Shown one piece after another: positions 4,670 to 18,783 of a stretch of 20,350 nucleotides of DNA; within the stretch, counting starts at the first letter, position 1, and every line of letters begins with the position of its first letter. The DNA is taken from IMG/VR virus record IMGVR_UViG_3300037580_000253, positions 1-20,350 of that record; one strand, written 5' to 3'. The notes under the pieces were generated by a model. It searched no databases and was not told where the DNA came from. It saw only the letters and a list, made by a program, of their open reading frames with translations. A program made the translations under genes and the position numbers. This DNA comes from a virus.

Positions 4670-5563
4670 TTACGCCGCAGTGCCGGTGGAACCGTAGGCC
4701 AGTTGCCATAGGCCATAGCCGGCGTTGTCGCGGCTGTCCACGCCGTAGAGGAATTCCTTTTTCATGAACACGTTATCATCGTCCGGAGAATCCTTGGCCA
4801 CGAACTCGGGGCGCTTGCGCTGCTGGAAGATCAGGGGTTTAACAGGTTTACTCGTGTCCAGCAGGAACCACATCGTATCATGACCGGCCAGCTCGGGAGC
4901 CACCATTAATTCAGCGGTACCCTTCCACGGGTTGGTCTTGCCAGCGGCATCCCTATCGGAGAGTAGGATTTCCCTGCCTATACCCTCCAGGGCCGGCGGG
5001 ACCACCAACAGGTTGGGAACGATCTTCAGTGGCCTGCCGTGCTCGTCCTTAAAGCTCATCATGGCAGCCCTGGCCGCCGCGTAGGATGCGGCCGACAGCG
5101 CCGCGTCGGTCACGTTAGACTGCGGGGGCTGGTTGCCGTCCTTGTGCTCCGGCGCGAAGAACGGCTGCCCGTCGTAACACTTCTGAATAAACCCGTTGAC
5201 CAGCAGTTCAAACACCAACTCGTCAGGGTGTATCGCCGCCGACTGGCCCAAGGCTTGGATCAGGGGCGTGTAAATGCCGATGGCGTCATCTTCGATGTCG
5301 TTGCGATCCACGGACACGGTGGCCTCCCAGTCGCGGTTCTTGATGGTGTACCCGTGGGCCGCGAGGTTCTGGATCACCCGGTCGCCAATCCACTCGCGCA
5401 TCCGCGGGACCCTACCCAGCCACTTGTATTCCTCTTCGCGGGTGGTAGAGGGAACCACCGTGGCGATGCGCTCGTACACAGGCTGGGCGGTTTCCAGCGC
5501 CTTATTAAAGATTGTCTTGAAGCTCCGGTAAATGCTCTGCAGGGTTGCCTGGTTAACAATCAT
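4670..5563 (-). CDS. Major capsid protein (Mu gpT-like)
   Basis: A 297-residue protein, the same size class as Mu gpT, which forms the icosahedral shell. Recognisable blocks are the N-terminus (MIVNQATLQSIYRSFKTIFN), EEEYKWLGRVPRMREWIGDR, LAAHGYTIKNRDWEATVSVDR, and the conserved end region with a GVDSRDNAGYGLWQLAYGS motif. The gene has a good binding site (GGAGGG seven nt before ATG) and sits between the decoration-like gene and gp35, as expected. Maturation by the I-type protease upstream is likely but not visible in the sequence. Confidence 0.95.
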   Translation of the reverse strand: MIVNQATLQSIYRSFKTIFNKALETAQPVYERIATVVPSTTREEEYKWLGRVPRMREWIGDRVIQNLAAHGYTIKNRDWEATVSVDRNDIEDDAIGIYTPLIQALGQSAAIHPDELVFELLVNGFIQKCYDGQPFFAPEHKDGNQPPQSNVTDAALSAASYAAARAAMMSFKDEHGRPLKIVPNLLVVPPALEGIGREILLSDRDAAGKTNPWKGTAELMVAPELAGHDTMWFLLDTSKPVKPLIFQQRKRPEFVAKDSPDDDNVFMKKEFLYGVDSRDNAGYGLWQLAYGSTGTAA

Positions 5564-5575
5564 CCTTTATCCCTC

Positions 5576-6094
5576 CTAAGATGCCATGATGCCGGCAGCT
5601 TTCAGCTTTGCCAGCAGGGCGTTGAAGTCCGCTACAATGGTGGCCAGATCGGCCGCGGTGCTATCGGCCTGCGCCTGGGCCGTCCTGCGGTTGGCCTCCG
5701 CAATGTCAATCCAGACCCTGGTGGCCGATTCCACTTCCGTGATGATGCCGCATCCTACGGCATTGGTGGTGGATAGGGCCACCGTCTGGTCATCGCTCAC
5801 GAAAACCGGCTTGCCCACGTCCGCTGCGGTCATGCCGCTGGCCTCGAAGTCGAAAACTCCCTCTTTCCAGACCAACACCGTCTGGGCACTGTCGGCCCCG
5901 CCGGTGTTGTCCACATACTCGCGGGAAACCCCCACGAACTTCAGCCCCGCCGTATCCGCTGCCGGTACGGCGTAGCCGCTGGCGTTCAGACAAACCATGG
6001 CCCCGGCGTAGATCTTCGCGCCGGCCGCCACGGGATAGGCCGCCTGGCCGCCCACTTTCCTGGTGGTATTCCGGTCCTGAGTTAACGCTGCCAT
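5576..6094 (-). CDS. Putative capsid decoration/cement protein (DUF2190-like)
   Basis: A 172-residue protein between the protease-scaffold and the major capsid gene. The first 120 residues are rich in A, G, V and T and read as a small beta-barrel with repeated turns (AAGAKIYAGAMVCLNASGYA, FVGVSREYVDNTGG, KPVFVSDDQTVAL). This is the pattern of capsid cement or DUF2190-type proteins. The last 45 residues form a helical, alanine-rich tail (AEANRRTAQAQADSTAADL) that could trimerise. GGAGGTGTAAGAG precedes ATG 6094. Mu itself has no gene here, so this looks like a capsid-stabilising addition. Confidence 0.75.
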   Translation of the reverse strand: MAALTQDRNTTRKVGGQAAYPVAAGAKIYAGAMVCLNASGYAVPAADTAGLKFVGVSREYVDNTGGADSAQTVLVWKEGVFDFEASGMTAADVGKPVFVSDDQTVALSTTNAVGCGIITEVESATRVWIDIAEANRRTAQAQADSTAADLATIVADFNALLAKLKAAGIMAS

Positions 6095-6097
6095 CTC

Positions 6098-6622
6098 TTA
6101 CACCTCCATGCCGCCGTATTTCTTGAAGTCCTCATCGGAAACGCCCAGCATCTTGTTGATTGACGCCTGCACGTCGTCCGCCGTGGTGGCAGGCTTGCTG
6201 GGACTAACACCGGGAGCCGGCTTGAGTGGCACCACCTGCGGGGCTTGCTCCAGGAACGCCTTGAATCCTTCCTGGTCCTTCAGGGCGTACTGCTCGGCCC
6301 ACTCCTTCTGCGCCGGGGTGATCTTGCCTTCCGCCAGCGCCCTTGCCACCAGTTCGTCGCGCTCCCGCTGGGCCAGCTTGTCCTGCAGGGCTTTAAACTC
6401 TTCAACCCGCACGTAGCCCGACGGATTCTTCAAAGCAATCACCCGTCCTTTGACTTCCGCCAGCCCGGCATCCTCCTTGAGGTCTAAAAGCTCCAGAACC
6501 TCCTTGTGAGCCGGTGGCTGGGGCTTGTCCTTGAGGGCCTTCACTGCTTCCAGCAGCTCCGCCTCGTCCGGCTGGCCGGTAAGCCCCAGCATCCTGGCCA
6601 GCTCTTCCATAAACTTGGACAT
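6098..6622 (-). CDS. Nested scaffold protein from internal start (Mu gpZ-like)
   Basis: Inside the protease gene and in the same frame, ATG 6622-6620 is preceded by a perfect AAGGAGG at 6637-6631 with 8-nt spacing. That is as good as any gene-start site in the window. Translation from it gives 174 residues beginning MSKFMEELARMLGLTGQPDE, which is the helical scaffold without the protease. In Mu, gene Z is produced in just this way from within I, and free scaffold is needed in large excess over protease. The site falls exactly at the linker between the two domains. I infer the product from the binding site and the Mu parallel. Confidence 0.8.
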   Translation of the reverse strand: MSKFMEELARMLGLTGQPDEAELLEAVKALKDKPQPPAHKEVLELLDLKEDAGLAEVKGRVIALKNPSGYVRVEEFKALQDKLAQRERDELVARALAEGKITPAQKEWAEQYALKDQEGFKAFLEQAPQVVPLKPAPGVSPSKPATTADDVQASINKMLGVSDEDFKKYGGMEV

Positions 6623-7387
6623 CTTATCATCCTCCTTGCCGTGTGTATTAACTATCGGCCGCACCCCGGATATGGCCGGCGCGTTGGTCAGGGCCACCGA
6701 GTGGATGGCCACGGCCTTGTTGTCCGCCCGGCGCACCAGCACCACCGGAGAGAGGTACCGGTATTCCTTGTTTGCCAGGTACTCCCTAGCCCGCCCCGTC
6801 CATTCCACTCTGGCCCAGAGGCCGTCCGGCCCCCGGTCCTCAAGCTCTTTTATCCAACCAGCCGCCGGGGCCTGGCCGCCTTCCAGGGTCTGGTGTTCGT
6901 AGTCAATCACAATATCATTGCCTCTGGCCTTGAAGTAACTGATTATCTCGGTCAGGCTTTCCTCGTCCACGGTGAAGTCCCCCTTGGCAGACCGCACCTG
7001 GCCGAAGGGGAGGAGCTGTATCCACTCGGGCACCTGGCCGGCCAGGTCGCTGGCCAGGGTCACCGTAAAGGTGTTCTCCTGAGCGAACTCGCCGATCTTA
7101 AACTTCTTCTTTTTCTCTTCCAGCCGGCGGGATATTATCTCTCGCTCCCGTTCCGTGTACTGTTCCTGGTTATCCGGCTGACCCCAATACCTGGCCGCCA
7201 CCCTTGTCTGCTCGGCGTTGGGGCAGGGGTAGCGGTAGTTCACGGGGTCCAGGTAGTCCTCGTCCGTGAGGCCGGGCCAACGACTATGTTCCGCCGGCAT
7301 AGTCACATTGCCGTCGGGCTTGATGCCTATTCCGTACCTTCTGGATCGGGCTTCCTGCGCCCGCTTTTCTTCCTCGCTTGCCGACAT
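6098..7387 (-). CDS. Capsid maturation protease / scaffold precursor (Mu gpI-like)
   Basis: A 429-residue protein. Residues about 105-250 match the Mu gpI protease family: WIQLLPFGQV, then GNDIVIDYEHQTL, AAGWIKELE, YLSPVVLV, and HSVALTNAPAISG (the H and S/N blocks around the active site). After a linker rich in charged residues, the C-terminal 174 residues are helical and scaffold-like. The N-terminal 95 residues are additional and contain RYPCPNAEQTRVAARYWGQ followed by a basic helix. This resembles an accessory domain (DUF6582 type) found in other phage proteins. The start ATG has GGGGGTGAT before it and lies just downstream of the phased repeats. The protease cuts the scaffold and frees the shell for DNA packaging. 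Confidence 0.92.
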   Translation of the reverse strand: MSASEEEKRAQEARSRRYGIGIKPDGNVTMPAEHSRWPGLTDEDYLDPVNYRYPCPNAEQTRVAARYWGQPDNQEQYTEREREIISRRLEEKKKKFKIGEFAQENTFTVTLASDLAGQVPEWIQLLPFGQVRSAKGDFTVDEESLTEIISYFKARGNDIVIDYEHQTLEGGQAPAAGWIKELEDRGPDGLWARVEWTGRAREYLANKEYRYLSPVVLVRRADNKAVAIHSVALTNAPAISGVRPIVNTHGKEDDKMSKFMEELARMLGLTGQPDEAELLEAVKALKDKPQPPAHKEVLELLDLKEDAGLAEVKGRVIALKNPSGYVRVEEFKALQDKLAQRERDELVARALAEGKITPAQKEWAEQYALKDQEGFKAFLEQAPQVVPLKPAPGVSPSKPATTADDVQASINKMLGVSDEDFKKYGGMEV

Positions 7388-7400
7388 GCCATCACCCCCC

Positions 7401-7449
7401 GCGTTAATAATGCGTTAAAACCGCGTTAAATGGCGTTACAGCGCGTTAA
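7401..7449. repeat. Five helically phased GCGTTAA repeats
   Basis: Copies of GCGTTAA start at 7401, 7412, 7423 and 7443, with a one-mismatch copy (GCGTTAC) at 7433. The start-to-start distances are 11, 11, 10 and 10 bp, about one helical turn each, so all copies face the same side of the DNA. A weaker GGGTTAA lies at 7457. They fill most of the gap between the F-like and protease genes and contain stop codons in all frames, so they are not coding. Likely protein-binding sites; the function is unknown. Confidence 0.8.
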
Positions 7450-7482
7450 CGGATTCGGGTTAATACCTTAAACCTCTCGCTC

Positions 7483-7505
7483 AAAATAGGCTCTTTTAGA
7501 AGCCT
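7483..7505 (-). terminator. Weak hairpin after the F-like gene, possible terminator
   Basis: On the minus strand, directly after the stop of the F-like gene, AGGCT pairs with AGCCT across an 8-nt loop and is followed by ATTTT. The stem is only 5-6 bp, so it would attenuate transcription at best. Confidence 0.3.
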
Positions 7506-8246
7506 CTAAGGGCGTTTCCGCTCCTCCTGGCGCTTCCGGTACGCCTCTCGTAGGCTGGGCGGGTACCTCTCCAGGTCCGGTTTCCAGGCCTCTTTCCCTG
7601 GGTTAAAGCCGAACCCCGGATCGGGTATCAGCGGCCTAGCCGGCTGCCCCGGCGGCTCCACCAATCCGGGAGCAGCCCCCGTTTCTACCTTCAGCCCTCT
7701 GCGCCTCACCTCGCGCTCCGATAGGTTGCGCACCGCACAGCGGCAGCGGTAGCCGTTGGGCGGGTACCAGGTGTCCCAAAACGGGTCGTCGGCCCGCCGC
7801 ACCGTCCCGTCCAGGGCCAGGTGGGTGGGGCGGGTCCGCCGGTCGTTCACCGCGTCATACATCCAGTAAGGCCTGGCCTCCAGGATGTCCGGTTCGGTCA
7901 TCTGCTTGTAGCGGCCCACGTTAAAGGCCGTCTGGATATTGGTGCGGAAGATGTTGTCCAGTCGGTATGGGGTGGCCCCTTCCCAGCCCCTGGTCTTGAA
8001 AAGCTCCTGCGCCTGCTCCTGGAATTCCCTGACCGTCAGGCCCTCGGCAATAGCCTTATCCAGCAGCCGCCAAACTTCGTTCAGCATGTCCAGCCCTGTA
8101 GCGCCCGCCACCGTGAAGGCGTTGACCTTGATCTCATCAGCCAGCCGCCGGAACTCCTCTGGGGTCAGCACCACCTTGTACCGCCAGTAGCTGATGGCCT
8201 CCTCAAAAGGGAGGGGTTCCAACACAATCTGCGTCAGACTAGCCAT
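7506..8246 (-). CDS. Minor head protein (Mu gpF/gp30-like)
   Basis: A 246-residue protein with the canonical Mu F signature. It has a helical N-terminal half (LTPEEFRRLADEIKVNAFTV), RLDNIFRTNIQTAFNVGRY, YDAVNDRRTRPTHLALDG, and DPFWDTWYPPNGYRCRC with the paired cysteines. Members of this family bind the portal and sit inside the capsid, and may help eject DNA. The ATG lies within the last codons of the portal gene (8-base overlap), so translation is coupled. The C-terminus is short and basic. Mu F is longer, so this is a compact member. Confidence 0.95.
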   Translation of the reverse strand: MASLTQIVLEPLPFEEAISYWRYKVVLTPEEFRRLADEIKVNAFTVAGATGLDMLNEVWRLLDKAIAEGLTVREFQEQAQELFKTRGWEGATPYRLDNIFRTNIQTAFNVGRYKQMTEPDILEARPYWMYDAVNDRRTRPTHLALDGTVRRADDPFWDTWYPPNGYRCRCAVRNLSEREVRRRGLKVETGAAPGLVEPPGQPARPLIPDPGFGFNPGKEAWKPDLERYPPSLREAYRKRQEERKRP

Positions 8247-9777
8247 TGATCACCGTGTACCTCCCGTACAGGTCGGCGGCGTATAAGGCCCGCTGCACCA
8301 GGTCCTCGAACTCCTCCAAGGCCATCTGGCCGTACAGCTCGGCCAGCCGCTCCCGCAGCTCCTCCAGGCTAGTGGCCTCGGCGATGGCCCGTTTGACCAG
8401 CTCCAGCAGGTCTCGCACCACGGGCAGGGCCTGTATCACGGCCAGGTCGGCCAGGCGGTCCACCTTCCCCTGGGCTGTGCGTGGGTCGCCGTCGGACAGA
8501 GCCAGGCCCTTGAGGGGCATCGCCCCGCCGCTCGGCGGCGTCACCAGGGTCTGGCCGGCTTCTGGCTTCGGGATCCCGAACTTCTCATAAACATGCTCGG
8601 CCGCTATCGGCAAGCCCACCTCTTTCACCAGAGTGGCGTAGGTCTTGCTCTCGGCGGCAAGGTCCTCCGGCGGTTCGTAGTGGAACTTGATCCAGGGCAG
8701 CCTGGCCTCCGGCCCGAAATTGAACCGTACCAGGGGCCTGATCAGGTCTCGGCGCAGGGTCTCCGCCAGGGCCTTGCAGTCCGCTTCCAGCAAATCCTGC
8801 CGCACTTCCGCGTGGGTCTGGCTGGCAGCGTAGCTACCCCGGCTGCCCACCTCGGTGGTGAGGGTCTGCCCCAGGATGGCCTTGGACATCTCTGCGTTGC
8901 AGAAGTTGGCCAGGCCCTGGTATACGCTGGCCCCGCCGGTGCCCTTTGTCTCGATGAACTCAATGTCTGTGTTACGGCTGATGATGCCGGCGGCGTCGGT
9001 CCCCAGTTGCACGACCGCCTGCAGAAGCTTCTCCCGGTCCTCCTGGGAGGTGCCGGGGTCGTACTTGCCCAGCCTGAGCGGCATGCCGAAGATCTCGGCG
9101 AAAGCTACCCAGTCCTTCAGGGTGTAGTTCTTGAACAGGTACATCCAGGCCACTACCCTTAAAACCCCCTGGCGGGAGGGGTGGCCGCTCTTGGCTTTGT
9201 ATTTGTGGACGATGAACTTGTTGGCCGGCAGCTCTATCCCCTGAACCGGGTTTTGGTCCGTCAAAAGGCGCAGCTCCCTGGTGTCATGAGTAAAGGTAAA
9301 CCTTTTCTGGGGTACCCAGCGCAGTTCCCTGGCCCATACCCGGCCGTCGGCTATCTCCCACATGATTTCCGTTCCCGAAAGCCCCTTGCCGATGGCGTCT
9401 AAAAGGTCGAGCAGGGCATCCTCAAAGCCCAGGATGTGGTCCAGCGCCTCGGCGATAAAGTCCGCCACTTCCCGGTCCCTGGGGTCATCGGAAAACGGGA
9501 TCACGTCGTAGTCCAACCCCAGTACCGCGTTCTTCCTCGTTTGCAGAAGACTATAAAGGTGGGGGTCCTTTTCCTCCATCTCCTCGAACAGTTCGGCCTG
9601 GCGCAGGATGTCGCCCTCGTCCGCCTCCCGGAAGATGCGGGCCAGCCGCTGAGGCGTCAGCCCTACCGACGGGTAGGAGGAGAAGCGGTCCCGGATGGAG
9701 GCCACCGCCACCTCGTCCATTATCGGTTTTTCTCGCATCTTAATCGGCCGGCCGTCCGGCCCGTAAATCGTCGGCAC
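8239..9777 (-). CDS. Portal protein (Mu gp29-like, DUF935)
   Basis: A 512-residue protein forming the dodecameric ring at the packaging vertex. It has family blocks such as YSLLQTRKNAVLGLDYDV, GLSGTEIMWEI, FGMPLRLGKYDPGTSQEDRE, and LGQTLTTEVGSRGSYAASQTH, the last being highly characteristic of DUF935 portals. GTG start at 9777-9775 overlaps the terminase stop as TAGTG, with AAGGGGG nine nt upstream. The order terminase, portal, F, protease is the Mu order. The C-terminal 90 residues (after about residue 420) are less conserved and helical. Confidence 0.96.
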   Translation of the reverse strand: MPTIYGPDGRPIKMREKPIMDEVAVASIRDRFSSYPSVGLTPQRLARIFREADEGDILRQAELFEEMEEKDPHLYSLLQTRKNAVLGLDYDVIPFSDDPRDREVADFIAEALDHILGFEDALLDLLDAIGKGLSGTEIMWEIADGRVWARELRWVPQKRFTFTHDTRELRLLTDQNPVQGIELPANKFIVHKYKAKSGHPSRQGVLRVVAWMYLFKNYTLKDWVAFAEIFGMPLRLGKYDPGTSQEDREKLLQAVVQLGTDAAGIISRNTDIEFIETKGTGGASVYQGLANFCNAEMSKAILGQTLTTEVGSRGSYAASQTHAEVRQDLLEADCKALAETLRRDLIRPLVRFNFGPEARLPWIKFHYEPPEDLAAESKTYATLVKEVGLPIAAEHVYEKFGIPKPEAGQTLVTPPSGGAMPLKGLALSDGDPRTAQGKVDRLADLAVIQALPVVRDLLELVKRAIAEATSLEELRERLAELYGQMALEEFEDLVQRALYAADLYGRYTVING

Positions 9778-11078
9778 TAGTAAGCCCCCTTCACAAATGC
9801 CCGCCGTCTGGCCACCGACTCGTATTCCGGCTTGCCCGGTGGGTTCGTCCCGGCGTGGAGCGCCAGGGCCAGAGCCCAGAACCGGTCCGCGTGCCCGCCC
9901 CCGGCCTCGCTCCGTTCGGCGTCATAGCGGATGTTGCCGGCCGCCGTGGTCACCTTCTTCACGCTGTGCAGGTCCTCGCGTATCTCCCGGCGCGCCGGCA
10001 CCCGCACCAGGCGGTCCTCGAACTTGCGCCGCTGGGTCACCACCAGCTCCTGTTTGACCGCCGCAATGAAGGTGACCGGTTCCACCAGGTAGCCGTAGCG
10101 CTCCTGGGCCTCCTCGGCAAGCTGCATGCCCAGGCCCGTACTGTCGATGCATGCTCGCCGCAGCCGAGGCAGGGAGAGATACCAGAACAGCTCCTGCCTT
10201 TGCACCCGGAACGGCGTCTTGGCTAATTCCTTAACGGCCCTGGTCCAGAAGACATCCCCCAGGACCTCGCAGAGCCAGATCACCGTCAGGTCGCGCTTGC
10301 GGCCGATGTCCACCCCCAGGTAAAGGTCGCCCTGGGGCTCCCAATCCTCGGGCAGCTCGGTGGTGGCCTGGTCGTCCTCGCAGTTATTGATCATCTCGTA
10401 GGGCAGGAGGGAGTCGGCCTCGTCCAGGAACTCGCAGCAGAACTCCTGCAGCCAGTCGTCCTCGGACTCAACACCCTTGCGCAGCTCCTCGATGTCGACG
10501 TCCATGCCCTGCTCCTTGGCCTGGTATATGTCCACCCGGTGCTTCGACCAGGTGCCGGTGTCGTCCATCCATAGGTTGTAGAACTTGTTCGACTTGCCCT
10601 GGGGCGTGCTGATCACCCTGATCTTGTATCCCCTGGTGATGGTGGGGTAGAGGGCCGTCCATATCTTTCTGCTGTCGGCATGGAAGGCGAACTCGTCCAG
10701 CACCACGTTCCCGGAGAAACCCCTGGCCGTGTCCGGGTTCGCCGGCAGGCCGATCACCTTTGATCCGTTGGGGAAGCGTATCTCAAGCTGTTTAAAGTCC
10801 TTATCGTCGATCTGAAACGTCGTCTCCAGCTCTTGGCAGGCCACCCCGATGGCCCTGGCGTGCATGGCCACCTTTTCCATTAACTCCTTGCTCTGCCGTT
10901 CACCGCGCGAGAGAAGCACCCACAGGGTCCGGTGCTCCACCGCGTCCAATACCACTTCCAGGGCTACGGCGAAGGAGAAGCCGGTCTGCCTGGCCTTGAG
11001 GGCGATCTTGAAGCGGCTCCTGTCCTCGACCCACTTCTTCTGGTATTCAGCTAACTGGATGGCGCTAGATGATGCCAT
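9777..11078 (-). CDS. Terminase large subunit (Mu gp28-like)
   Basis: A 433-residue packaging motor. The ATPase part has a Walker A-like loop LKARQTGFS (residues 27-35) and a Walker B NVVLDEFAF with D128/E129, followed by the coupling segment RVISTPQGKSNKFY. The nuclease part has LGVDIGRKRDLTV (D257), IDSTGLG (D312) and GGGHADRFWALALALH (D398), the three-acid pattern of terminase nucleases. It starts inside the small subunit gene (14-base overlap). In Mu-like phages it packages DNA headfully from the integrated copy, taking flanking host DNA along. It is somewhat shorter than Mu gp28. Confidence 0.96.
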   Translation of the reverse strand: MASSSAIQLAEYQKKWVEDRSRFKIALKARQTGFSFAVALEVVLDAVEHRTLWVLLSRGERQSKELMEKVAMHARAIGVACQELETTFQIDDKDFKQLEIRFPNGSKVIGLPANPDTARGFSGNVVLDEFAFHADSRKIWTALYPTITRGYKIRVISTPQGKSNKFYNLWMDDTGTWSKHRVDIYQAKEQGMDVDIEELRKGVESEDDWLQEFCCEFLDEADSLLPYEMINNCEDDQATTELPEDWEPQGDLYLGVDIGRKRDLTVIWLCEVLGDVFWTRAVKELAKTPFRVQRQELFWYLSLPRLRRACIDSTGLGMQLAEEAQERYGYLVEPVTFIAAVKQELVVTQRRKFEDRLVRVPARREIREDLHSVKKVTTAAGNIRYDAERSEAGGGHADRFWALALALHAGTNPPGKPEYESVARRRAFVKGAY

Positions 11079-11595
11079 AGATTTGCTCCTTGATCAGGGC
11101 CAGGGTTTCCGGGTCGAGGCCTTTCTTCTCGGCCGTCTGCTCGATCTGCTTCACCGCCGCCTCCGCCTTCTGCTTGAACTCCAGCTTCAGGCGCTCGCGC
11201 GTCACGGCGCTGCGCTCAAGCAGTGCCAGTGCCTTAATGGCCTCGGTAACCTTCTTGTCCAGCCCCTGCCCGGCATCCCCGGCTGCCAGTAGCGCCTCGG
11301 TGATGAGCTGGCTGGCCAGGGCGCTGGCCGCTTCGTTCAGTTCGGTGGCTGGCCGGCCGGCATTGTCCTCCACGATGGCCCTGGCCTGATCGCGCACTAT
11401 GCGCAGTCGCTCCAGCCTGGCCAGGAAGTCCTTGCCATAGCGGCCCACGGAGGACTTGCTGACCTGGTGGCCCATCTGCCTCAGCCAGTCGGCCACTTCC
11501 TGGTAGGTGTGACCCTCCACCAGCCGGGCGTTGATTTCCTCCACCAGCTCGGGCGGCAGCTCCCTTTCGATCTTGGAATGCTTTCGCCGGGCCAT
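11065..11595 (-). CDS. Terminase small subunit (Mu gp27-like, DUF3486)
   Basis: A 176-residue helical DNA-binding protein. Residues 1-60 hold KHSKIERELPPELVEEINARL then YQEVADWLRQMGHQVSKSSVGRY, the DUF3486 signature of an HTH that recognises the packaging start. The remainder is a long coiled-coil region (alanine, glutamate and lysine-rich). It overlaps the large subunit gene by 14 bases. ATG 11595 follows the stop of the gp26-like gene with a 1-base overlap. The partner is the large terminase. Confidence 0.93.
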   Translation of the reverse strand: MARRKHSKIERELPPELVEEINARLVEGHTYQEVADWLRQMGHQVSKSSVGRYGKDFLARLERLRIVRDQARAIVEDNAGRPATELNEAASALASQLITEALLAAGDAGQGLDKKVTEAIKALALLERSAVTRERLKLEFKQKAEAAVKQIEQTAEKKGLDPETLALIKEQIYGII

Positions 11596-11900
11596 TAAAC
11601 ATTCACTCCCGGATCGTCCGGGATGTTGCCCTCCAGTAGGTCTTTACCCTTCGCGGTCAGCTTGGCCACTCTCATGGTCAGGCCCAGGTCGTCGGATTCA
11701 AGCTGCCGGCACTCCACGTACCCCTTATCTTTCAGATAGTCCAGGTAACCCTGCAGGATGGCCGGGTTAACATTGTAGCTTATGTCATTTAAGGTAAGGG
11801 CGATCACGCGGTCGCTTACCTCGTGGGGATAGTCCAGGTCCAGGATTTTCAAAATGCGGCCCCTGATCTCGCGGGCCTCGGCTCGATTGGTCTTCGCCAC
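11595..11900 (-). CDS. Winged-helix protein (Mu gp26-like)
   Basis: A 101-residue protein with a winged-helix pattern (residues 10-85: RGRILKILDLDYPHEVSDRV, ILQGYLDYLKDKGYVECR, and a basic hairpin before AKLTAKGKDLL). It starts with GTG at 11900, GGAGG ten nt upstream, after a TAA that ends the gp25-like gene. Mu gp26 stands at the same place between gp25 and terminase genes and is also a small winged-helix-like protein. A role in packaging or transcription is not established, so this is a family and position call only. Confidence 0.8.
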   Translation of the reverse strand: MAKTNRAEAREIRGRILKILDLDYPHEVSDRVIALTLNDISYNVNPAILQGYLDYLKDKGYVECRQLESDDLGLTMRVAKLTAKGKDLLEGNIPDDPGVNV

Positions 11901-12212
11901 TTACTTTACACCTCCCACCAGTTTGGCGATGGCCTCTTTGATTTCCGTCGTGTCGGTCACCACCCGGTCGATCTTCGCCTCCAGGGCGGCCGTTGTCCTT
12001 ATGAAGTCCTCCCGCAGGACGTACTGGCGGGGCAGCGACGCCTTGAAGTCCGCTAGGTCCTTGGCCAGCAACTCCATTGCCTCTTCCTGCTTCGCCTGCC
12101 GCTCCTTCAGCGCCCCCCTGGTATCATGCACCAGGTACCCCAGGGCCGCCAGCGTGGCCGAAAGGACCATGAGAAGGATTTGAACGCCGATATTGTCGCC
12201 GATATTGTCCAT
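11901..12212 (-). CDS. Membrane-anchored coiled-coil protein (Mu gp25-like, DUF2730)
   Basis: A 103-residue protein with one N-terminal membrane span (residues 9-27, VQILLMVLSATLAALGYLV), a basic helix rich in K, E and Q that should form a coiled coil, and the motif LPRQYVLREDFIRTTAALEA, typical of DUF2730 and of some holin-associated proteins. ATG 12212 is preceded by GAGG nine nt upstream. It is the first gene after the terminator that closes the Mor unit, so it may begin the head-gene transcript. Function unknown; a lysis-related role is possible since no clear holin or lysin is found in the window. Confidence 0.8.
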   Translation of the reverse strand: MDNIGDNIGVQILLMVLSATLAALGYLVHDTRGALKERQAKQEEAMELLAKDLADFKASLPRQYVLREDFIRTTAALEAKIDRVVTDTTEIKEAIAKLVGGVK

Positions 12213-12242
12213 GCCGCACCTCGTTTTCGCGATTTCTGAACC

Positions 12243-12273
12243 AAAAGAAAAAATCCCAGCATCTACTGGGATT
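12243..12273 (-). terminator. Strong intrinsic terminator after the Mor-like gene
   Basis: On the minus strand, AATCCCAG (12273-12266) and CTGGGATT (12259-12252) form a perfect 8-bp stem around a 6-nt loop, followed by TTTTTT C TTTT. It lies 46 nt beyond the Mor stop and 31 nt before the gp25-like start. It divides early/middle from late transcription. No clear -10/-35 promoter is visible in the remaining space before gp25. Confidence 0.9.
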
Positions 12274-12318
12274 GTAACCTGCCCACATTTTCGGTTTCAA
12301 AAAAAGCCCTTGAGAAAC

Positions 12319-12648
12319 TTATTTCCCGAAAGTGCTTTCCAGGAATTCCTCGCTGAAAAGGGACGGCTGGTTGCTTTCGTCCGGGCGTTCAGCCAGTATT
12401 TTCCTGACCCAGGCCTCCGTCAGCCCGTACTTGATCGCCAATTGCTTGTGGTTGCCGCCGTCGAATTCCTCCCTGATTTTCTTGTCCCTGATGAGCTTGA
12501 TGGTGCTGTCTAGCTTTGTGAAGTACAGGGTGGTGCCCTGGAACTCCTTCGCCAGCTTCATGGTATTCTCTAAGCCGATGATGGATGTCAGCTTCCGGTA
12601 GGGCTCGGGCAGCACCTCGGGATTTATCTCTTTCATCCACTGCTCCAA
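12319..12648 (-). CDS. mor: Mor-family transcription activator
   Basis: A 109-residue activator of the Mor/C family. The N-terminal half is the dimerisation region (PEPYRKLTSIIGLENTMKLA, FQGTTLYFTKLD). The C-terminal half has an HTH, NHKQLAIKYGLTEAWVRKIL, as in Mu Mor. In Mu, Mor binds RNA polymerase and turns on the middle promoter, and C (a Mor relative) turns on late genes. Here a single family member is seen, so it may serve for both. TTG at 12648 has GGAGG with 8-nt spacing; ATG at 12636 with GGAG is an alternative. It is the last gene before the 12243-12273 terminator. Confidence 0.93.
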   Translation of the reverse strand: MEQWMKEINPEVLPEPYRKLTSIIGLENTMKLAKEFQGTTLYFTKLDSTIKLIRDKKIREEFDGGNHKQLAIKYGLTEAWVRKILAERPDESNQPSLFSEEFLESTFGK

Positions 12649-12691
12649 TTTGCCACCCTCCCTGTTATCTTGATCGTCAATTCCGCCGGCG

Positions 12692-13111
12692 TCAAGGTGC
12701 CGCGCACTCCTTTCTGCCGGCCAGGGCCTTCAGGCCCTCGATCACCCGCCAGGCCTGCGCCCTGGTGAGCCACTGGGGGTTGTCCACGCCGGCATACTTG
12801 CGGCAGAACCCCTGCAGGCGCTTCGGGTTGTCGACCCAGTCCAGCTCTTTTTCCAGTTCCCTGATCTTCCAGAGTTGCTTTTTGGTGGCCAGGGCCACCT
12901 TGCGGCCGCCCGGCAGAACGATGGACCGCGAACGGTTAGCCCGGTTTTCCAAGTCGTCAATGACCAGGGCGGCTTCCCGCTTGGTCAGTTCAGATATGTG
13001 CTCCTTGCCCGTCAAGCCTTCCACGATGGCGTGTAAAAGGTCGCTGTCCAGGCACAGCTCCCTCGCTGTGGCGAAAACTTTCTTCCTTTGCGCCGCCGTG
13101 ATGCCGTCCAT
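12692..13111 (-). CDS. gemA: GemA-like regulatory protein (DUF1018)
   Basis: A 139-residue protein of the GemA/DUF1018 family, which in Mu is made early and alters host gene expression and DNA supercoiling. Signature features are ITAAQRKKVFATARELCLD at the N-terminus, LTGKEHISELTKREAALVIDDL in the middle, and near the end KKQLWKIRELEKELDWVD and RLQGFCRKYAGVDNPQWLT. The open frame reaches a TTG at 13117, but ATG 13111 has AAGGGGGG six nt upstream and is the better start. It is followed by mor, as in other Mu-like phages of Firmicutes. Confidence 0.93.
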   Translation of the reverse strand: MDGITAAQRKKVFATARELCLDSDLLHAIVEGLTGKEHISELTKREAALVIDDLENRANRSRSIVLPGGRKVALATKKQLWKIRELEKELDWVDNPKRLQGFCRKYAGVDNPQWLTRAQAWRVIEGLKALAGRKECAAP

Positions 13112-13132
13112 GCCCAACCCCCCTTGGCTTCA

Positions 13133-13366
13133 TCATTTTACCGTTACCGCCACCCATACGCCATTCTCCCTGGCCAGCACCACCACATGCCGGCTGCCCA
13201 CCAGTTTCAGCCTGAACGTGCCGTCGCCTTGGCTTTTGAGCCTCCTGCTCTTGAGACTCCTGGCCACCCAGGCCTGCTGCGCGGAAGGGGGGGCGCTACC
13301 CACCCGCTCCCGGTAACGTTCCTTGAAATGGTGCGTGAGAATAACCGTAACCTTCTTCCCGCGCAA
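13133..13366 (-). CDS. Small basic protein, possible RelE/DUF4258-like fold
   Basis: A 77-residue protein with many arginines. TTG at 13366 has AAGGGGG eight nt upstream; a GTG at 13375 overlaps the SD and is less likely. It begins with a strand (KKVTVILTHHF), an arginine-rich helix (FKERYRERVG, RSLKSRRLKS), and ends with beta strands (FRLKLVGSRHVVVLARENG, VWVAVTVK). That order resembles small RelE-superfamily or DUF4258 proteins, which can be ribonuclease-like toxins or phage host-takeover factors. There is no antitoxin beside it. The fold is only suggested. Confidence 0.55.
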   Translation of the reverse strand: MRGKKVTVILTHHFKERYRERVGSAPPSAQQAWVARSLKSRRLKSQGDGTFRLKLVGSRHVVVLARENGVWVAVTVK

Positions 13367-13379
13367 GGCCAGCACCCCC

Positions 13380-13487
13380 TTACGGGAGTCGGCCCCAGTG
13401 CCTCGCTACCACAACCGCCGCGGTGAAATACCCGGCCGCGAAGCCGATGAAGATATAAGCCAAGATTTCCGCTAACGCGCCCCTCAC
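13380..13487 (-). CDS. 35-residue membrane protein after Gam
   Basis: A small ORF of 35 codons. GTG 13487 follows the Gam stop by 3 nt and has GGAGG with 8-nt spacing, so it is likely translated by coupling. The protein is one membrane span (residues 6-27, AEILAYIFIGFAAGYFTAAV) with a basic end (ARHWGRLP), so the C-terminus should lie in the cytoplasm. No family recognised. Similar tiny membrane proteins are frequent in Firmicute phage early operons. Confidence 0.6.
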   Translation of the reverse strand: MRGALAEILAYIFIGFAAGYFTAAVVVARHWGRLP

Positions 13488-13490
13488 GGC

Positions 13491-14000
13491 CTACACCTCC
13501 ACCAGCTTATCCCGGTTGACCTCGTACCAGAACACGTCTTCGGTCTTAATTTTCGCGCCCACGGCCTCGACGGTAGCCGGGTCGTATTTCTTCAGGGTAT
13601 CCTTGCTGACCTGTTCTTTGATCACGATGCAGTCCGTCATGCCTCTGGCCTTCAGGGCCGCGATGATGGCTTTGACGTTGCGCAGAATCAACTTGGTTGA
13701 TTGCCGGAAGCCGATGCGCCCGAAATTCAGCTCCCTGGATTTCTTGCCATCCAGCCCGTCCCTGTGGGTCTCGGCAAACTCCTTCACCAGGCGTTCCAGG
13801 AAAGCCTTGCGCTCCTGGAGGGGTTGGGCCTGGTTCGCCAGCTCCTCCTTGAGGTCGGTTATTTTGCGGTTGTATTCCGCCTCCATACTCTCGATCTCCA
13901 GGTCAATCCTGCCGATTTCGCGCAGGGTATCGTCCACCTCCGTCCAGCTCTTGAGGGCGGTATCCTCCAGCCTGCGCCTTGCTGTTGCTGCTTTTGCCAT
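13491..14000 (-). CDS. gam: Host-nuclease inhibitor Gam
   Basis: A 169-residue protein of the Mu Gam family, which binds double-strand DNA ends as a Ku-like dimer and shields them from exonucleases. It has a long N-terminal helix (residues 8-75, EVDDTLREIGRIDLEIESME..., coiled-coil in Mu Gam), the core RELNFGRIGFRQSTKLILR, and the end EDVFWYEVNRDKLVEV. ATG 14000 has AAGGAGG seven nt upstream; ATG 14006 overlaps the SD and is rejected. Position among early genes fits protection of replicative intermediates. Confidence 0.95.
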   Translation of the reverse strand: MAKAATARRRLEDTALKSWTEVDDTLREIGRIDLEIESMEAEYNRKITDLKEELANQAQPLQERKAFLERLVKEFAETHRDGLDGKKSRELNFGRIGFRQSTKLILRNVKAIIAALKARGMTDCIVIKEQVSKDTLKKYDPATVEAVGAKIKTEDVFWYEVNRDKLVEV

Positions 14001-14021
14001 GTCCATCCCTCCTTGAAAGTC

Positions 14022-14243
14022 TTACGTTATGCCTCGCTCCATCCTGGCCAGTCTGAACAAGTAACTGAGCCTTATCCTGGCGGCCGTGAGCTCCAGCGTG
14101 GCGGCATCCACCAGATCCTTTTCCGTTACCTGGTTGAACCTGGCCTCCGCCTGCTGGACCGCCTCCAGGGCCGCCGCAATGTCGGCCGGTGTTACCTGCG
14201 CCTGATCAGCCCGGCCGCTCTTTCTGGCAAATACCTTCACCAT
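14022..14243 (-). CDS. DUF2508/YaaL-like small protein
   Basis: A 73-residue protein. The C-terminal 50 residues (LEAVQQAEARFNQVTEKDLV, then ELTAARIRLSYLFRLARMER) match the pattern of DUF2508 (YaaL) proteins of Firmicutes, a helical hairpin with acidic and aromatic positions. The ATG begins within the end of the DnaC-like gene, so the two are coupled. YaaL itself is of unknown function. Its presence in an early phage operon supports a Firmicute host. It lacks anything catalytic. Confidence 0.7.
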   Translation of the reverse strand: MVKVFARKSGRADQAQVTPADIAAALEAVQQAEARFNQVTEKDLVDAATLELTAARIRLSYLFRLARMERGIT

Positions 14244-14244
14244 T

Positions 14245-14955
14245 TCACCCCTTTCCGGTTTTCCGGTAGTCCGGCCCGTCCACCACCACCACGTGGCACA
14301 TCTCGAACAGCCTGCTGGTGATCCGCTCCCATCCCGGCAGCTTCTCCAGCTCCTCCAGCTCCAGGTTCGATGTGATGATCGTCGGCAGCATCTCGTTGTA
14401 TCGAGCGTTGATTATGACGTACAGGCGTTCCGTTACCCACTCGGTATTGCGCTCGGCCCCCAGGTCGTCCAGGATGACCACGTCCAGGGTCTTCAAAAGC
14501 TCCAGGCGCTCCTGGGCCTCCTGGCCGAGTCCGACCTGCGGTCTCAAAAGGTCCATGATCTCCGGTACGCTCCCGCACACTCCCGGCACCCCCTTACCCA
14601 AAAGGCTGTTCAGAATGCCGTAGGCCAGGTGGCTCTTGCCCGTGCCCGGTGGCCCGATGAAGCACAGGCCATTTTTGCTCTCGCCCCGGATGGCCTCAAA
14701 CTGTTCCACGTACCGCCGCGCGATCTTCCAGGCCCCCTTTTGGTAGGTGGAGTCGAAGTCTTCCAGGCGCTTCTGTTGAAACCGCCTGGGCACCCTGGCC
14801 GCCTTGAACAGGCGTTCCAGCCTGGCCTGCTGCTCCTTAGCCAGGAGGCAGCGGCAGCGGAGCATCAGCTCGCCGTCCTCATCTCTAACCAGCACCCAGC
14901 CGCTGCCGTCGCACTCGTTAAAAGGGCATGTTGGTTTCATCGCTTCCGTCTCCAT
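14245..14955 (-). CDS. DnaC/IstB-like AAA+ ATPase, putative helicase loader
   Basis: A 236-residue ATPase. It begins with a small zinc-finger-like motif (C10, C15, C34, C36), followed by a linker and the AAA+ core: Walker A GPPGTGKS (101-108), Walker B VVILDDLGAE (159-168), sensor 1 TIITSN (192-197), and an arginine-finger candidate in ERITSRLFEM. This is the architecture of DnaC/DnaI-type loaders and of IstB. ATG 14955 has GGAGGTGA before it and overlaps the stop of the 45-residue ORF; the frame is open to 15135 but that part is low-quality sequence. Since MuA/MuB use host replication proteins, a phage-encoded loader would recruit the replicative helicase. Function inferred. Confidence 0.85.
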   Translation of the reverse strand: METEAMKPTCPFNECDGSGWVLVRDEDGELMLRCRCLLAKEQQARLERLFKAARVPRRFQQKRLEDFDSTYQKGAWKIARRYVEQFEAIRGESKNGLCFIGPPGTGKSHLAYGILNSLLGKGVPGVCGSVPEIMDLLRPQVGLGQEAQERLELLKTLDVVILDDLGAERNTEWVTERLYVIINARYNEMLPTIITSNLELEELEKLPGWERITSRLFEMCHVVVVDGPDYRKTGKG

Positions 14956-15092
14956 CAGTCGGTCACCTCCGGCCGGGCGCATTCCGTGGCCTCGTCTGCC
15001 AGGTCGGCCGCTACGCACAGGGCAGTCACTATGACGCCCACGCAACCCCCGGCCACAAAGGCCGCTACTAGCCACCAAACAGAGATCATCAT
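14955..15092 (-). CDS. 45-residue membrane protein
   Basis: A small gene of 45 codons. Tandem ATGs at 15092 and 15089 overlap the stop (TGA 15091-15089) of the preceding gene, with a G-run about 10 nt upstream, and its own TGA overlaps the ATG of the DnaC-like gene. It has one membrane segment (residues 3-25, ISVWWLVAAFVAGGCVGVIV) and an acidic tail. The composition resembles DUF3789-type phage membrane proteins. Unbroken coupling on both sides makes translation likely. Confidence 0.65.
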   Translation of the reverse strand: MMISVWWLVAAFVAGGCVGVIVTALCVAADLADEATECARPEVTD

Positions 15093-15550
15093 GATGATGC
15101 AGCCCCCCCCGGTTTGCGGGCCACCAGCATGCCACTTTGCTCGTCGAACACGCAGAACGCGCGGCAGGGAACGGGCCAGCCGTCGTCGGCCAGCTTTCTA
15201 ATCAATTTACTGGCTGAAATAAGCAGCCCATGGGTGGAGGCCTTGCCCCTGTCCGACCTGGCGGGGAGGCCGGTCTCGCTTTTCTTAATTGCCAAGAATT
15301 GCTTGTTAATGCCAATCTGCACCCGGTCGCCGGCCTTCATGCCGGCCTCCATGGCCGCAGCGCTAGAGACCCGCAATTGGGACTTACCCACGTAGACGAA
15401 AGGGTCGTTGCCGTTACCTTTCGCGCGGATCTCCTCGCCGTACCAGGTGAAGGCTTCCGGCTGCCAGTAGGTCTTCACCTCGCTCGACGGGCCTGCCTCC
15501 CGCAGGTCGCGGGGGTAGCCGCTGCGCTTGGGCTTGCAGGTTCCCATCAT
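15089..15550 (-). CDS. Unknown early protein with AbrB-like central region
   Basis: A 153-residue protein. The ORF is open to 15769, but the first 73 residues there are shadow of the winged-helix gene. ATG 15550 has GAGGGG six nt upstream and lies 2 nt after the upstream stop. The middle (VYVGKSQLRVSSAAAMEAGM then KAGDRVQIGI) resembles the swapped-hairpin strands of AbrB-like DNA-binding domains, but the match is weak. The rest is mixed alpha/beta with a basic centre (RSDRGKASTHGLLISASKLI). The gene lies in the coupled early accessory cluster between MuB and the DnaC-like gene. I do not recognise a family. Confidence 0.65.
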   Translation of the reverse strand: MMGTCKPKRSGYPRDLREAGPSSEVKTYWQPEAFTWYGEEIRAKGNGNDPFVYVGKSQLRVSSAAAMEAGMKAGDRVQIGINKQFLAIKKSETGLPARSDRGKASTHGLLISASKLIRKLADDGWPVPCRAFCVFDEQSGMLVARKPGGAASS

Positions 15551-15552
15551 CT

Positions 15553-15924
15553 TTACCCCTCCTCTCCAAAGACCAGCCTGATCTGCTCCGCCTGTCCCCG
15601 GCGCAGCCCCAGGTCTTCCGCCGCCCGGTCGAAGGCCCTGGCCACCTGGGCGATTTCGGACACCCTGGCCCACAGATGGCGGGAACAAGCGTCTGCTTCC
15701 TCCCGGTCCGCCGGGATATAAAACCCAGCGGGTGGCTCCACCGCCGAACCCACCGGCACCCCCAGGCACCGCAGCTCGTGGATTGCGGCCCGGACCGTCC
15801 TCTCCGGCATCTCCAGCGCCTGGGCCAGCTCCCTGGCCCGCACGGCGTTTCGGCGGCCCACGGCCTTGAGCTTCAGGTAGCGCCAGACCTTCTGCCCCTG
15901 CACGGGAAGCGGGGCGGGTTTCAT
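15553..15924 (-). CDS. Winged-helix DNA-binding protein, early regulator
   Basis: A 123-residue protein. Residues 10-70 are a winged helix (VWRYLKLKAVGRRNAVRARE, LAQALEMPERTVRAAIHELR, GVPVGSAVEPPAGFYIPAD with the wing). The remaining part is helical and charged (residues 75-123). Similar small winged-helix proteins (the HTH_11-like group) occur in Firmicute transposable phages. ATG overlaps the TGA of MuB as ATGA. The target is unknown; it may regulate early genes or contact replication proteins. Confidence 0.7.
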   Translation of the reverse strand: MKPAPLPVQGQKVWRYLKLKAVGRRNAVRARELAQALEMPERTVRAAIHELRCLGVPVGSAVEPPAGFYIPADREEADACSRHLWARVSEIAQVARAFDRAAEDLGLRRGQAEQIRLVFGEEG

Positions 15925-16898
15925 TTCAGGGTCAGCTCCTCAGCCGCTGTAACTATCGTCTCATTGATCACCCCGTCGGCGATGTCCAGGGCGCGCCTCA
16001 AGATTGTCGTTAACCGGCGCATCCCGCCGGCCTCCCTGGCCGCGCCCCTGGCCAGCAGGTACTCCCTGGCTGCCGGCGTCATGTTGAACTGGGCCAGGAT
16101 GGCCCGCATCTCTTCATTGTTTACCCCCTGCAGCTCCCGCAGGAAGCTCACACGGCTATAGAGCTGGGCCAGGTTCTCCCGCAGGGAAGGCCCCCTGGTG
16201 AGCCAGGCCCGCAAACGCGGCAGGCCGCAGACTACCACGCCGGTTTTCCCTTGGTCGTAAAGCATGCGCAGGATTTCCAGCTTGCGCACCGTCCGAGATG
16301 AGGACGATACCAGCATGTCAGCCTCGTCCACGATTATCAGCCGGGGCTCGGCCCGCAGGGCAGCCACTACCCGCTGCATGATGTCCCGTAATCCCCCGCC
16401 CAGCTCGACTCCAACGGCCTGGGCGATCTCTTCCACTAGTTGCTTGCTGGTCATCAGCACGTCGGCTGTGATCAGGATGGCGCGCGGGTCCTGCTTCAGG
16501 TACTCGTTCAGGGCTGTTGTTTTACCGCTTCCGGGAGCCCCCAGGATCACGCCCATGGCGCGCTCCTTGGCGCAGGCCTTGCAGACCCCGATCACCCGCT
16601 TGGCGTCCTCGGTCATGATGAAGTCCACCGTGGTCCGGTATTCCTGGGCCGTCGCTTCCTCCCTGGAAGCCTGCGCTTGCTCGGCCGCCTCCAGGGCCGC
16701 CTTCAGCTCCAAGAGCTTGGCCGCCACTTGCTCGGAGTCCAGCCCGGACGCGAACCGGGACACCAGCGGCCTGGAAACGCCGATCTGCCGGGCGATCTCC
16801 TCCTTTGTGACGCCCCTTTCCTCGGTCATGTAGCGCAGCCATTCCCGCGCCTGGTCCTGGTCAACAACCTCCTTTTTGCCCACCAACGTTAGAGACAT
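15921..16898 (-). CDS. Transposition target-capture ATPase (MuB-like)
   Basis: A 325-residue AAA+ ATPase that binds DNA non-specifically, activates MuA and directs transposition away from its own DNA (target immunity). Residues 27-52 form an N-terminal HTH (GVTKEEIARQIGVSRPLVSR), as in MuB. Walker A is GAPGSGKTT (120-128) and Walker B is LIIVDEAD (187-194). The sensor segment GVVVCGLPRLRAWL and the C-terminal helical part (GMRRLTTILRRALDIADGVI) follow. ATG 16898 has GGAGG eight nt upstream. It follows MuA with a 40-nt gap, as expected. Its downstream gene overlaps its stop. Confidence 0.95.
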   Translation of the reverse strand: MSLTLVGKKEVVDQDQAREWLRYMTEERGVTKEEIARQIGVSRPLVSRFASGLDSEQVAAKLLELKAALEAAEQAQASREEATAQEYRTTVDFIMTEDAKRVIGVCKACAKERAMGVILGAPGSGKTTALNEYLKQDPRAILITADVLMTSKQLVEEIAQAVGVELGGGLRDIMQRVVAALRAEPRLIIVDEADMLVSSSSRTVRKLEILRMLYDQGKTGVVVCGLPRLRAWLTRGPSLRENLAQLYSRVSFLRELQGVNNEEMRAILAQFNMTPAAREYLLARGAAREAGGMRRLTTILRRALDIADGVINETIVTAAEELTLK

Positions 16899-16938
16899 TC
16901 TCCGTTCCTCCTTCTCCTTTGGTTTTGAATTTCAGGCC

Positions 16939-18783
16939 CTAGCCCTCGGCCAGCACCTTGATATACTCGTCCGCCAGGTTTCTCCTGGCCCGCTTGCCGG
17001 CCTTGGCCGGGACGGAAGCCTCGGCCCTGGCCTTGCCGGCCGCCTCGTGGCCGGTGAGGGTCGCCACCCGGGGTTTCTCCACCCGGTTGGCCGTCGTCGC
17101 CGCCCTGGCCCCAGCCCTGCGCCGCTCCTCGACCACCTCTTCCAGGGTCTTGTTGTTCTCTCTGATCTGGCGCTCCAGCTCCTTCTGGGCGCGCCGGCGC
17201 ATGGCAAGAAATTCTTTGAGGTCGTCCTGAGTGGCCCCCATTTCCATAAGCTCCCGGTTATGCGCTACGCAGGCGAACTTGCCTTTGTGGTAGACCACGA
17301 GTTCACCCAGGCGGTACGGGTCGTAATAGACCGCCACCGTTTTGCCCACCAGCTTCCACAGCTCTGGCGAAGCGTACCAGAAGTTCTGCATCTTGATGCC
17401 CTCGTCGAACACCTTCCTGGTGTCCGCGCGCATCAGCAAGATGTCCAGCGCCCTCGGGTCTGGCATGTCCAGCCGCGCTTTGGGCTTTTTCCTGAATGCG
17501 TCGTATGGAGTGGTCTTGATTCCGGAGTGGACGCGGGTATGGTAGTCGGAAACCAGCCAGTAGGCGAATTGCTGTATGGTCTGCTCCAGGGTCCACAGCT
17601 CGCCCTTGGCCAGTAACTTCTTGGCCTTCTCGAAGGCCTTTTCCGGCTTGTTCTGAGGTGAATTGCCGATGTAGCCGGGGGCGTAACGGCTGAAGCGGTC
17701 GGCCACCGTGCCGAAAGCCCGTTCCACCGGTTTGGCCCACGGGCTGTATTCCTCGCAGTAGGTGACGTCAATGCGGAGGGTCTTGAAGACGGTATCCAGC
17801 CGGTCGCTCCGGTAGTCCTTGCCGTTATCTATGTAGGCTCCCACCGGCAGGCCGCACAGCGGGTTGTCGGGGTCTGCCTTGGGAAGCACGCCGTGGCGGA
17901 ATGCCAGGGCGATGGTGTCGCTTGAAGGCTGCAGGCAGATGCACCAGCCCACGAAGGCCGCCGTGGTCATGTCCAGCCAAGCCGTCAACCAGGGACGCAC
18001 CAGCTTTCCTTTGTATTCGATGAAGAAGTCGAACTGGTGGTGGTCGCCAACCCAGACCTGATTGACCAGGCGGGGTTTACGCCTGACCACCTTGGGCATG
18101 ACCTTCTTCCGGTAGGCCTCGACGCCTTCGCGGCCCATGACCTCCTCCGCGTAGCTGATCATGTCTTTCATTGCCCGGTAGAAGCTCTGCCGGCTGCCCA
18201 CCTTCCATCCTTCCTTTTCGGCCCGCTCCTGTACCCGCTCATAAACCCAGGCTAGGGTGGGCCGCAGGGAAGTCAGGTAGAGCTTTTTGCCGAACTCCAG
18301 GGCTTCCTGGTCAAAAGACTTGCTGCCGTATCCCCCGCTTTCTCTGGTCTTGCGCAGTCCGTCCAATATGCCCATAAACCCCCTTTCCTCGTAGGATGCA
18401 ATCCAGCGGTAGAGTGTGGCCAGGCTGACCCCGGCCATCCTGGCCAGGCTCTGCCGCTGCATCGTCACGTCCTCGCCGGCGTACGCCAGCGCCTGGCGGA
18501 CGAACACCTCCCGCCGCAGGGCTTCGGTGACGATCTCCTGGCCCTCGGCCTCGATGATCTCCGCCAGGTTGGTACCGTCGGCGGCTTTTTGCGCCTGTTC
18601 CATTCTCTGCTGCTCAAAGTAACGGTTTTGAGCATGGGCTGGCAGGGCGGAAAGGGGGATCAGCCATTGACCGCCGTCCCTTACCGGGTTGAAGGCCTTT
18701 ATTGCTTTAAGCACCGCCTGGCGGCTGACCCCCATCAGGTCCGCCGCCTCAGCCACGCTCAGCATTGTCTCCACCATTGTCAC
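16939..18783 (-). CDS. DDE transposase (MuA-like)
   Basis: A 614-residue recombinase that cuts and joins phage ends. Residues 7-55 hold an HTH (LSVAEAADLMGVSRQAVLKA). Residues 90-220 contain further DNA-binding helices. The catalytic core has D247 (WVGDHHQFD), D319 (YIDNGKDYR) and E354 (WAKPVERAFG), with 34 residues between the last two (DD35E type). A beta-barrel-like segment follows (about 445-500), then an arginine- and alanine-rich tail. In Mu the corresponding tail contacts MuB and ClpX. GTG 18783 is the longest start; ATG 18777 after GGGCGG is about equal. It overlaps the end of the 34-residue ORF. Confidence 0.97.
   Translation of the reverse strand: MTMVETMLSVAEAADLMGVSRQAVLKAIKAFNPVRDGGQWLIPLSALPAHAQNRYFEQQRMEQAQKAADGTNLAEIIEAEGQEIVTEALRREVFVRQALAYAGEDVTMQRQSLARMAGVSLATLYRWIASYEERGFMGILDGLRKTRESGGYGSKSFDQEALEFGKKLYLTSLRPTLAWVYERVQERAEKEGWKVGSRQSFYRAMKDMISYAEEVMGREGVEAYRKKVMPKVVRRKPRLVNQVWVGDHHQFDFFIEYKGKLVRPWLTAWLDMTTAAFVGWCICLQPSSDTIALAFRHGVLPKADPDNPLCGLPVGAYIDNGKDYRSDRLDTVFKTLRIDVTYCEEYSPWAKPVERAFGTVADRFSRYAPGYIGNSPQNKPEKAFEKAKKLLAKGELWTLEQTIQQFAYWLVSDYHTRVHSGIKTTPYDAFRKKPKARLDMPDPRALDILLMRADTRKVFDEGIKMQNFWYASPELWKLVGKTVAVYYDPYRLGELVVYHKGKFACVAHNRELMEMGATQDDLKEFLAMRRRAQKELERQIRENNKTLEEVVEERRRAGARAATTANRVEKPRVATLTGHEAAGKARAEASVPAKAGKRARRNLADEYIKVLAEG

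Follow-up and report, generated by a model that had tools for sequence, protein, structure and literature searches.

The locus considered here raises the question of why a head operon in which neighbouring genes overlap or abut should leave 118 bp in front of the gene for the head maturation protease (I), and what the regularly spaced repeats lying in that interval might do. The window, a virus record of 20,350 bases, covers the left-hand portion of a Mu-like, transposable phage; it encodes a transposase, B, Gam, GemA, Mor/C, terminase, portal, F, I, capsid and tail sheath (Table 1), and it is the presence of a Mu-type transposase A that identifies the phage as transposable. The gyrase site of Mu has been the classic strong gyrase site (SGS) for thirty years, and it has been unclear what form a working central site takes in phages that are not close relatives of Mu. 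An initial annotation of the window had rightly singled out the gap as conspicuous within the head operon, and had suggested that its repeats bind a phage regulator or a nucleoid protein, control a late promoter or form a central synapsis element of a new kind.

Table 1. Coordinates of the array, of its surroundings and of the related elements discussed in the text.
Feature	Position	Strand	Remark
Array of five phased TAACG units	7401..7449	-	Proposed gyrase-wrapping arm
Intergenic gap, 118 bp, holding the array	7388..7505	-	Between F-like gene and protease I gene
Rest of gap	7450..7505	-	Variable between relatives (alignment of close relatives)
Head maturation protease/scaffold (Mu I-like)	6098..7387	-	phrog_328
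Minor head protein (Mu F-like)	7506..8246	-	phrog_220
Mor/C-family activator	12319..12648	-	phrog_836, PF08765
DnaC/IstB-like helicase loader	14245-15135	-	Early region
B-like AAA+ transposition protein, N-terminal HTH	15921..16898	-	phrog_296, HTH_3
Mu-type transposase A	16939..18783	-	phrog_310
Capsid-less element	G037:C18:1-9900 (L337) and G195:C1 (L341, reverse complement 5490-18783)		
Examples of arrays in viral contigs	L056:5979, L079:3864, L122:185 and 607	+	

A phased array in front of the protease gene

On the + strand, CGTTA (TAACG on the coding strand) starts at positions 7402, 7413, 7424, 7434 and 7444, giving successive spacings of 11, 11, 10 and 10 bp. Five copies of GCGTTAA at 10-11 bp had been annotated; the five phased units are there, but the exact heptamer is found in four of them and the fifth reads GCGTTAC, the core common to all being TAACG. 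As the initial annotation had also stated, the array lies just upstream of the SD sequence of the protease gene: its end is followed directly by an GGGGGGTGAT run and then by the protease ATG, and the coding (-) strand of the gap reads ...GTTAACGCGCTGTAACGCCATTTAACGCGGTTTTAACGCATTATTAACGCGGGGGGTGATGGC-ATG.

The longest chain of TAACG at 10/11 bp in the window has five units. When the window was shuffled 300 times with its dinucleotides preserved, chains never grew beyond one unit (293 times) or two units (seven times), and since none of the 300 reached even three units, a chance origin of the array is excluded. Among all 1024 5-mers, chains of at least four units occur in the real window only for TAACG, its complement and the overlapping AACGC/GCGTT, and the window holds no second array of this phased kind. 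The helical-period GC signal of the window has its maximum at the array, and GC periodicity likewise peaks at the array in each of nine contigs that bear one.

Conservation among relatives and central position

Relatives were fetched through the protease protein, and arrays differing in copy number and spacers were found in the same pre-I gap of L002, L003, L005, L006, L007, L009 and L014; the array of L006 runs to about thirteen units, and L012 has a shorter pair. Absence of the motif from close relatives, which the initial annotation would have taken as a refutation, is not what was found: the array is present in close and distant ones alike. Consecutive spacings in the relatives are, with few exceptions, 10, 11, 21 or 22 bp, their best-fit period is 10.70 bp and 36 of 41 are in phase with it. 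Between the window and the relative G002, the bases of the units are identical at 25 of 25 positions and those of the spacers at 17 of 29 (p = 1.7e-4). Simple tandem duplication was rejected as an origin, the spacers differing between units and diverging between relatives while the units stay the same. A search for plasmid relatives of the gap found none. Palindromic CGTTATAACG / CGTTATCACGCGTGATAACG versions of the phased motif were observed in the pre-I gap of L352, L357, L362, L366 and L370, and the same gap holds other short repeats, out of helical phase, in L022, L030 and L049 (e.g. TTGAACC at ~8 bp).

A sample of Mu-like phages was also assembled by capsid protein homology, without reference to the motif, and in 60 of these phages the largest gap 0.5-2.3 kb upstream of the capsid gene was examined; the 60 loci are not independent, because the phages share ancestry. 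GC periodicity at 10.2-11 bp in these gaps has a median percentile of 0.989 relative to same-length windows of the same locus, and control periods of 7, 8.4, 13 and 15 bp have median percentiles of 0.55-0.85. The gap beats every other window of its locus in 48% of cases at the helical period and in 2-15% at the control periods. When 5-mers are ranked by pairs at 10/11 bp, TAACG comes first of 1024, with 23 loci, followed by TTTAA and TTAAA, and TAACG pairs at 7, 8, 13 or 14 bp occur in 0 of the 60 gaps.

The F/I junction is the place of the array in most phages. It lies at the TerL/portal junction in G024, and alike in G023, and at the MCP/head-tail adaptor junction in G025, whose pre-protease gap is short and free of an array, while in G030 it stands inverted before I. 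The array keeps close to the middle of the genome: its relative position is about 0.42 in G001, a near-complete relative of the truncated window, and, with contig ends taken as phage ends, about 0.50 in G004, 0.49 in G009 and 0.56 in G025; the Mu SGS lies at 0.488 of its genome.

A Mu-like element without capsid genes was found in two host genomes, in copies about 93-97% identical, which count as one case because of their shared descent. It carries A, B, GemA-like, tape-measure-like, truncated I and Mor genes, and measures 13.3 kb in the host genome where both of its ends are seen. The pre-I copy of the array is down to two units, and an intact array lies at 0.496 of the length of the element, as expected if a central site is needed. 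Mu is impaired when its SGS is moved away from the centre (PMC10052514, PMC3820752), and the capsid-less element with its central array amounts to a natural version of Pato's site-moving experiment. This 13.3-kb element is possibly a defective or satellite transposable element.

Likeness to the Mu gyrase site and a proposed role in end synapsis

The annotation of the Mu record puts the cut site of gyrase at 17879/17880, within the pre-I gap. Next comes the right arm, GATTTTTTAAAACGCGCCACGGGATTTTTAAACCGGTATTTAACGGTG, and its units, AACG, then AACC at +20 and AACG at +11 bp, have the same orientation as the window array. The initial annotation had seen no resemblance between the array and this site; since the Mu right arm carries same-orientation units at 20+11 bp, with the same TTTAA-ACG letters and in the same gap, that statement was wrong. 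Of its suggestions, the one left standing is a central synapsis element beside I on the pattern of Mu, but not as an element of a new kind, given the resemblance of the array to the right arm of the Mu SGS; the interpretation is supported in this part, and not with respect to resemblance or to the late promoter discussed below. The 20+11 bp spacing is kept in a 74%-identical Mu-like prophage of E. coli TUM9757, in which the letters have changed to TTTTTGAAG units, and Pasteurella phage Pmp9 has TTTAAACG units at 20+11 bp. The GC periodicity of the Mu gap, taken as a positive control, is significant, being reached by 11 of 500 shuffles.

Three features of a Mu-type SGS are found in the array: its location in the pre-I gap, its position near the middle of a transposable phage genome and its composition as a right arm of helically phased, bendable AT/GC units. 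In Mu the right arm of the SGS is essential, its repeat motifs bend the DNA for gyrase and the centre is the best position for the site (reviewed in PMC10052514); the phased bending of this arm is read by the C-terminal domain of GyrA (PMC10052514, PMC6379681, PMC12393610). The array is probably an SGS-type gyrase-wrapping site for end synapsis, forming the bendable arm of a central SGS. With every turn, the AT step (TTAA/TAA) and the GC step (CG/GC) of a unit would return to the same helix faces, so that the DNA would curl easily round one GyrA C-terminal pinwheel. The array would then wrap on this pinwheel of the host gyrase, and gyrase held there would supercoil the prophage from its middle, the genome being reeled into a single loop that has the array at its apex and brings both ends of the phage together for transposition. 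By analogy with Mu, a cleavage core, and a late promoter if there is one, could lie in the remainder of the gap; for comparison, the Mu cut site lies ~20 bp before the first right-arm unit.

Several observations count against the gyrase-site reading. Roughly half of the gaps in the sample are outscored by another window of their locus, and within Mu the SGS ranks only 19th for GC periodicity by the measure used here, with 18 other loci higher. The TAACG letters are kept more strictly than phasing alone needs, as the comparison with G002 indicates, and the same motif and spacing recur in replication genes of unrelated phages. A lone central site needs no TAACG clusters at the left end, yet several relatives have them. 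The pSC101 region taken here as the gyrase site of that plasmid is GC-periodic but lacks a TAACG array, and none turned up across its ori/par region.

If the reading is correct, a simple signature, TAACG or TTTAAACG repeated with every helix turn close to the middle, would allow central sites to be located across hundreds of transposable phage genomes, and tests of the central-loop model of end synapsis could extend to other phyla.

Alternative readings and known systems

A sequence-specific protein might instead bind every TAACG on one helix face and bridge the central array to left-end clusters, in which case the array would serve synapsis from the centre without being a gyrase site. The binder could be B, by way of its N-terminal HTH, some other protein of the phage, or a conserved one of the host. 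We regard this as unlikely, and retain it because the TAACG letters are conserved beyond the phasing and beyond the spacers, because clusters lie towards the phage ends and because the motif occurs in the replication genes of unrelated phages. TAACG clusters lie between the left end and a repressor-like gene in G001, G004, G024 and G025, with a right-end pair in G001, where the extra clusters, in coding orientation, lie near both ends at 193-596 and 35403-35436 (L250/L251). An N-terminal HTH-like region was recognized in B, through Pfam for the window and by eye for the other phages, in all array phages inspected, and the end-paired domain of Mu requires MuB, the left end and the SGS, end pairing depending on nucleoid proteins as well (PMC3820752). 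On the other hand, no protein tracks the array perfectly, and the divergent E. coli prophage changes the letters while keeping the 20+11 phasing. The abr-like gene is no consistent partner of the array: it was found in 7 of 31 records searched, and several records that have an array lack it.

In the window this abr-like gene (15089-15550, - strand) lies next to B on one side and the DnaC-like gene on the other, and encodes a 153-aa early protein that contains a conserved WQPEAFTW motif and has homologues in several array-bearing phages. The protein looked plausible by eye as an MraZ/AbrB-like cognate protein of the array; Pfam gave no match for it, and a medium-quality model of 70 pLDDT gave no match to AbrB.

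We would give only limited credence to the broader idea that phased TAACG is a sequence-specific code, read by a dedicated protein that would join the centre and the left end of transposable phages in one synaptic domain, and reused in the replication genes of unrelated phages to mark sites at which DNA topology is organised. Should a protein other than gyrase read the letters, the mechanism itself would be new.

It is highly improbable that the array serves as an upstream activator array for a late promoter of I, as the suggestion of late promoter control in the initial annotation would have it. In Mu the late promoter PI lies before I, and a counterpart read by a Mor/C-type activator would agree with the place of the array before I, with the presence of a Mor-family gene and with a gap free for a promoter. 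Such an activator array would keep to one gene and one orientation, whereas this array precedes the portal gene or follows the capsid gene in other phages and has the opposite orientation in G030, which makes a late promoter of I a poor general explanation. Moreover, no sigma-70 promoter was seen in the gap, and because the window array ends next to the ribosome-binding site there is no room for a promoter between it and I.

There is a very slim chance that the units are origin iterons for a phage replication initiator. The identical motif at 10/11 spacing does occur in replisome-organiser/initiation genes of many other phages, the window encodes a DnaC-like helicase loader and a protein of G032 resembles part of two such initiators. 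Profile searches at maximum sensitivity, however, detected no cognate initiator in the window or in most array-bearing Mu-like phages, whereas origin iterons would lie inside or beside such a gene; the array is not followed by an AT-rich unwinding stretch, and Mu-like phages replicate by transposition. The DnaC/IstB-like loader, which Mu is not known to have, may replace the host loader in replication restart.

A DNA pattern scan of viral contigs L050-L249 yielded 133 distinct non-perfect phased TAACG arrays, of which 88 fall within ORFs of 120 codons or more, and a great many of these ORFs are replication-initiator/replisome-organiser-like genes. Such arrays encode N..VT repeats, often followed by GATACAGATACA runs, and resemble origin iterons with an unwinding stretch.

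An RNA leader or attenuator was rejected, the spacing following helix turns with 21/22-bp skips and the fold being no better than that of shuffles (z -0.54), as were transposase end sites, the phage ends carrying CGTGAGA-type repeats and not TAACG.

Among known systems, the iterons of replisome organisers share the TAACG core and the 10/11 bp spacing with the window array; they lie inside the coding genes of initiators, in contrast to the intergenic and central array. Central SGSs in other Mu-like prophages are mentioned in a review (Oram and Pato 2004, via PMC10052514). As far as that second-hand account goes, the idea of a central site is common to them and to the window array. The prophages concerned are reportedly proteobacterial. 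The literature searched, with the original 2004 and 2006 papers outside it, yielded neither a TAACG array rule nor a Bacillota example.

The Topo-Seq motif of E. coli gyrase spans 130 bp, with a 10.75-bp GC periodicity in two 47-bp arms (PMC6379681), values close to the 10.70 bp of the arrays in relatives and to the length of the window array, about 50 bp. That motif consists of degenerate GC content, without fixed TAACG letters in the available portion of its description (PMC6379681).

The Mu SGS has three imperfect units (20+11 bp), compared with five near-identical TAACG units in the window and up to about thirteen in its relatives, and gyrase cleavage is proven for the Mu SGS only, the window array being a putative gyrase site. 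The two have in common a pre-I gap near the genome centre, helically phased AT/GC units, TTTAA-ACG letters and the same orientation.
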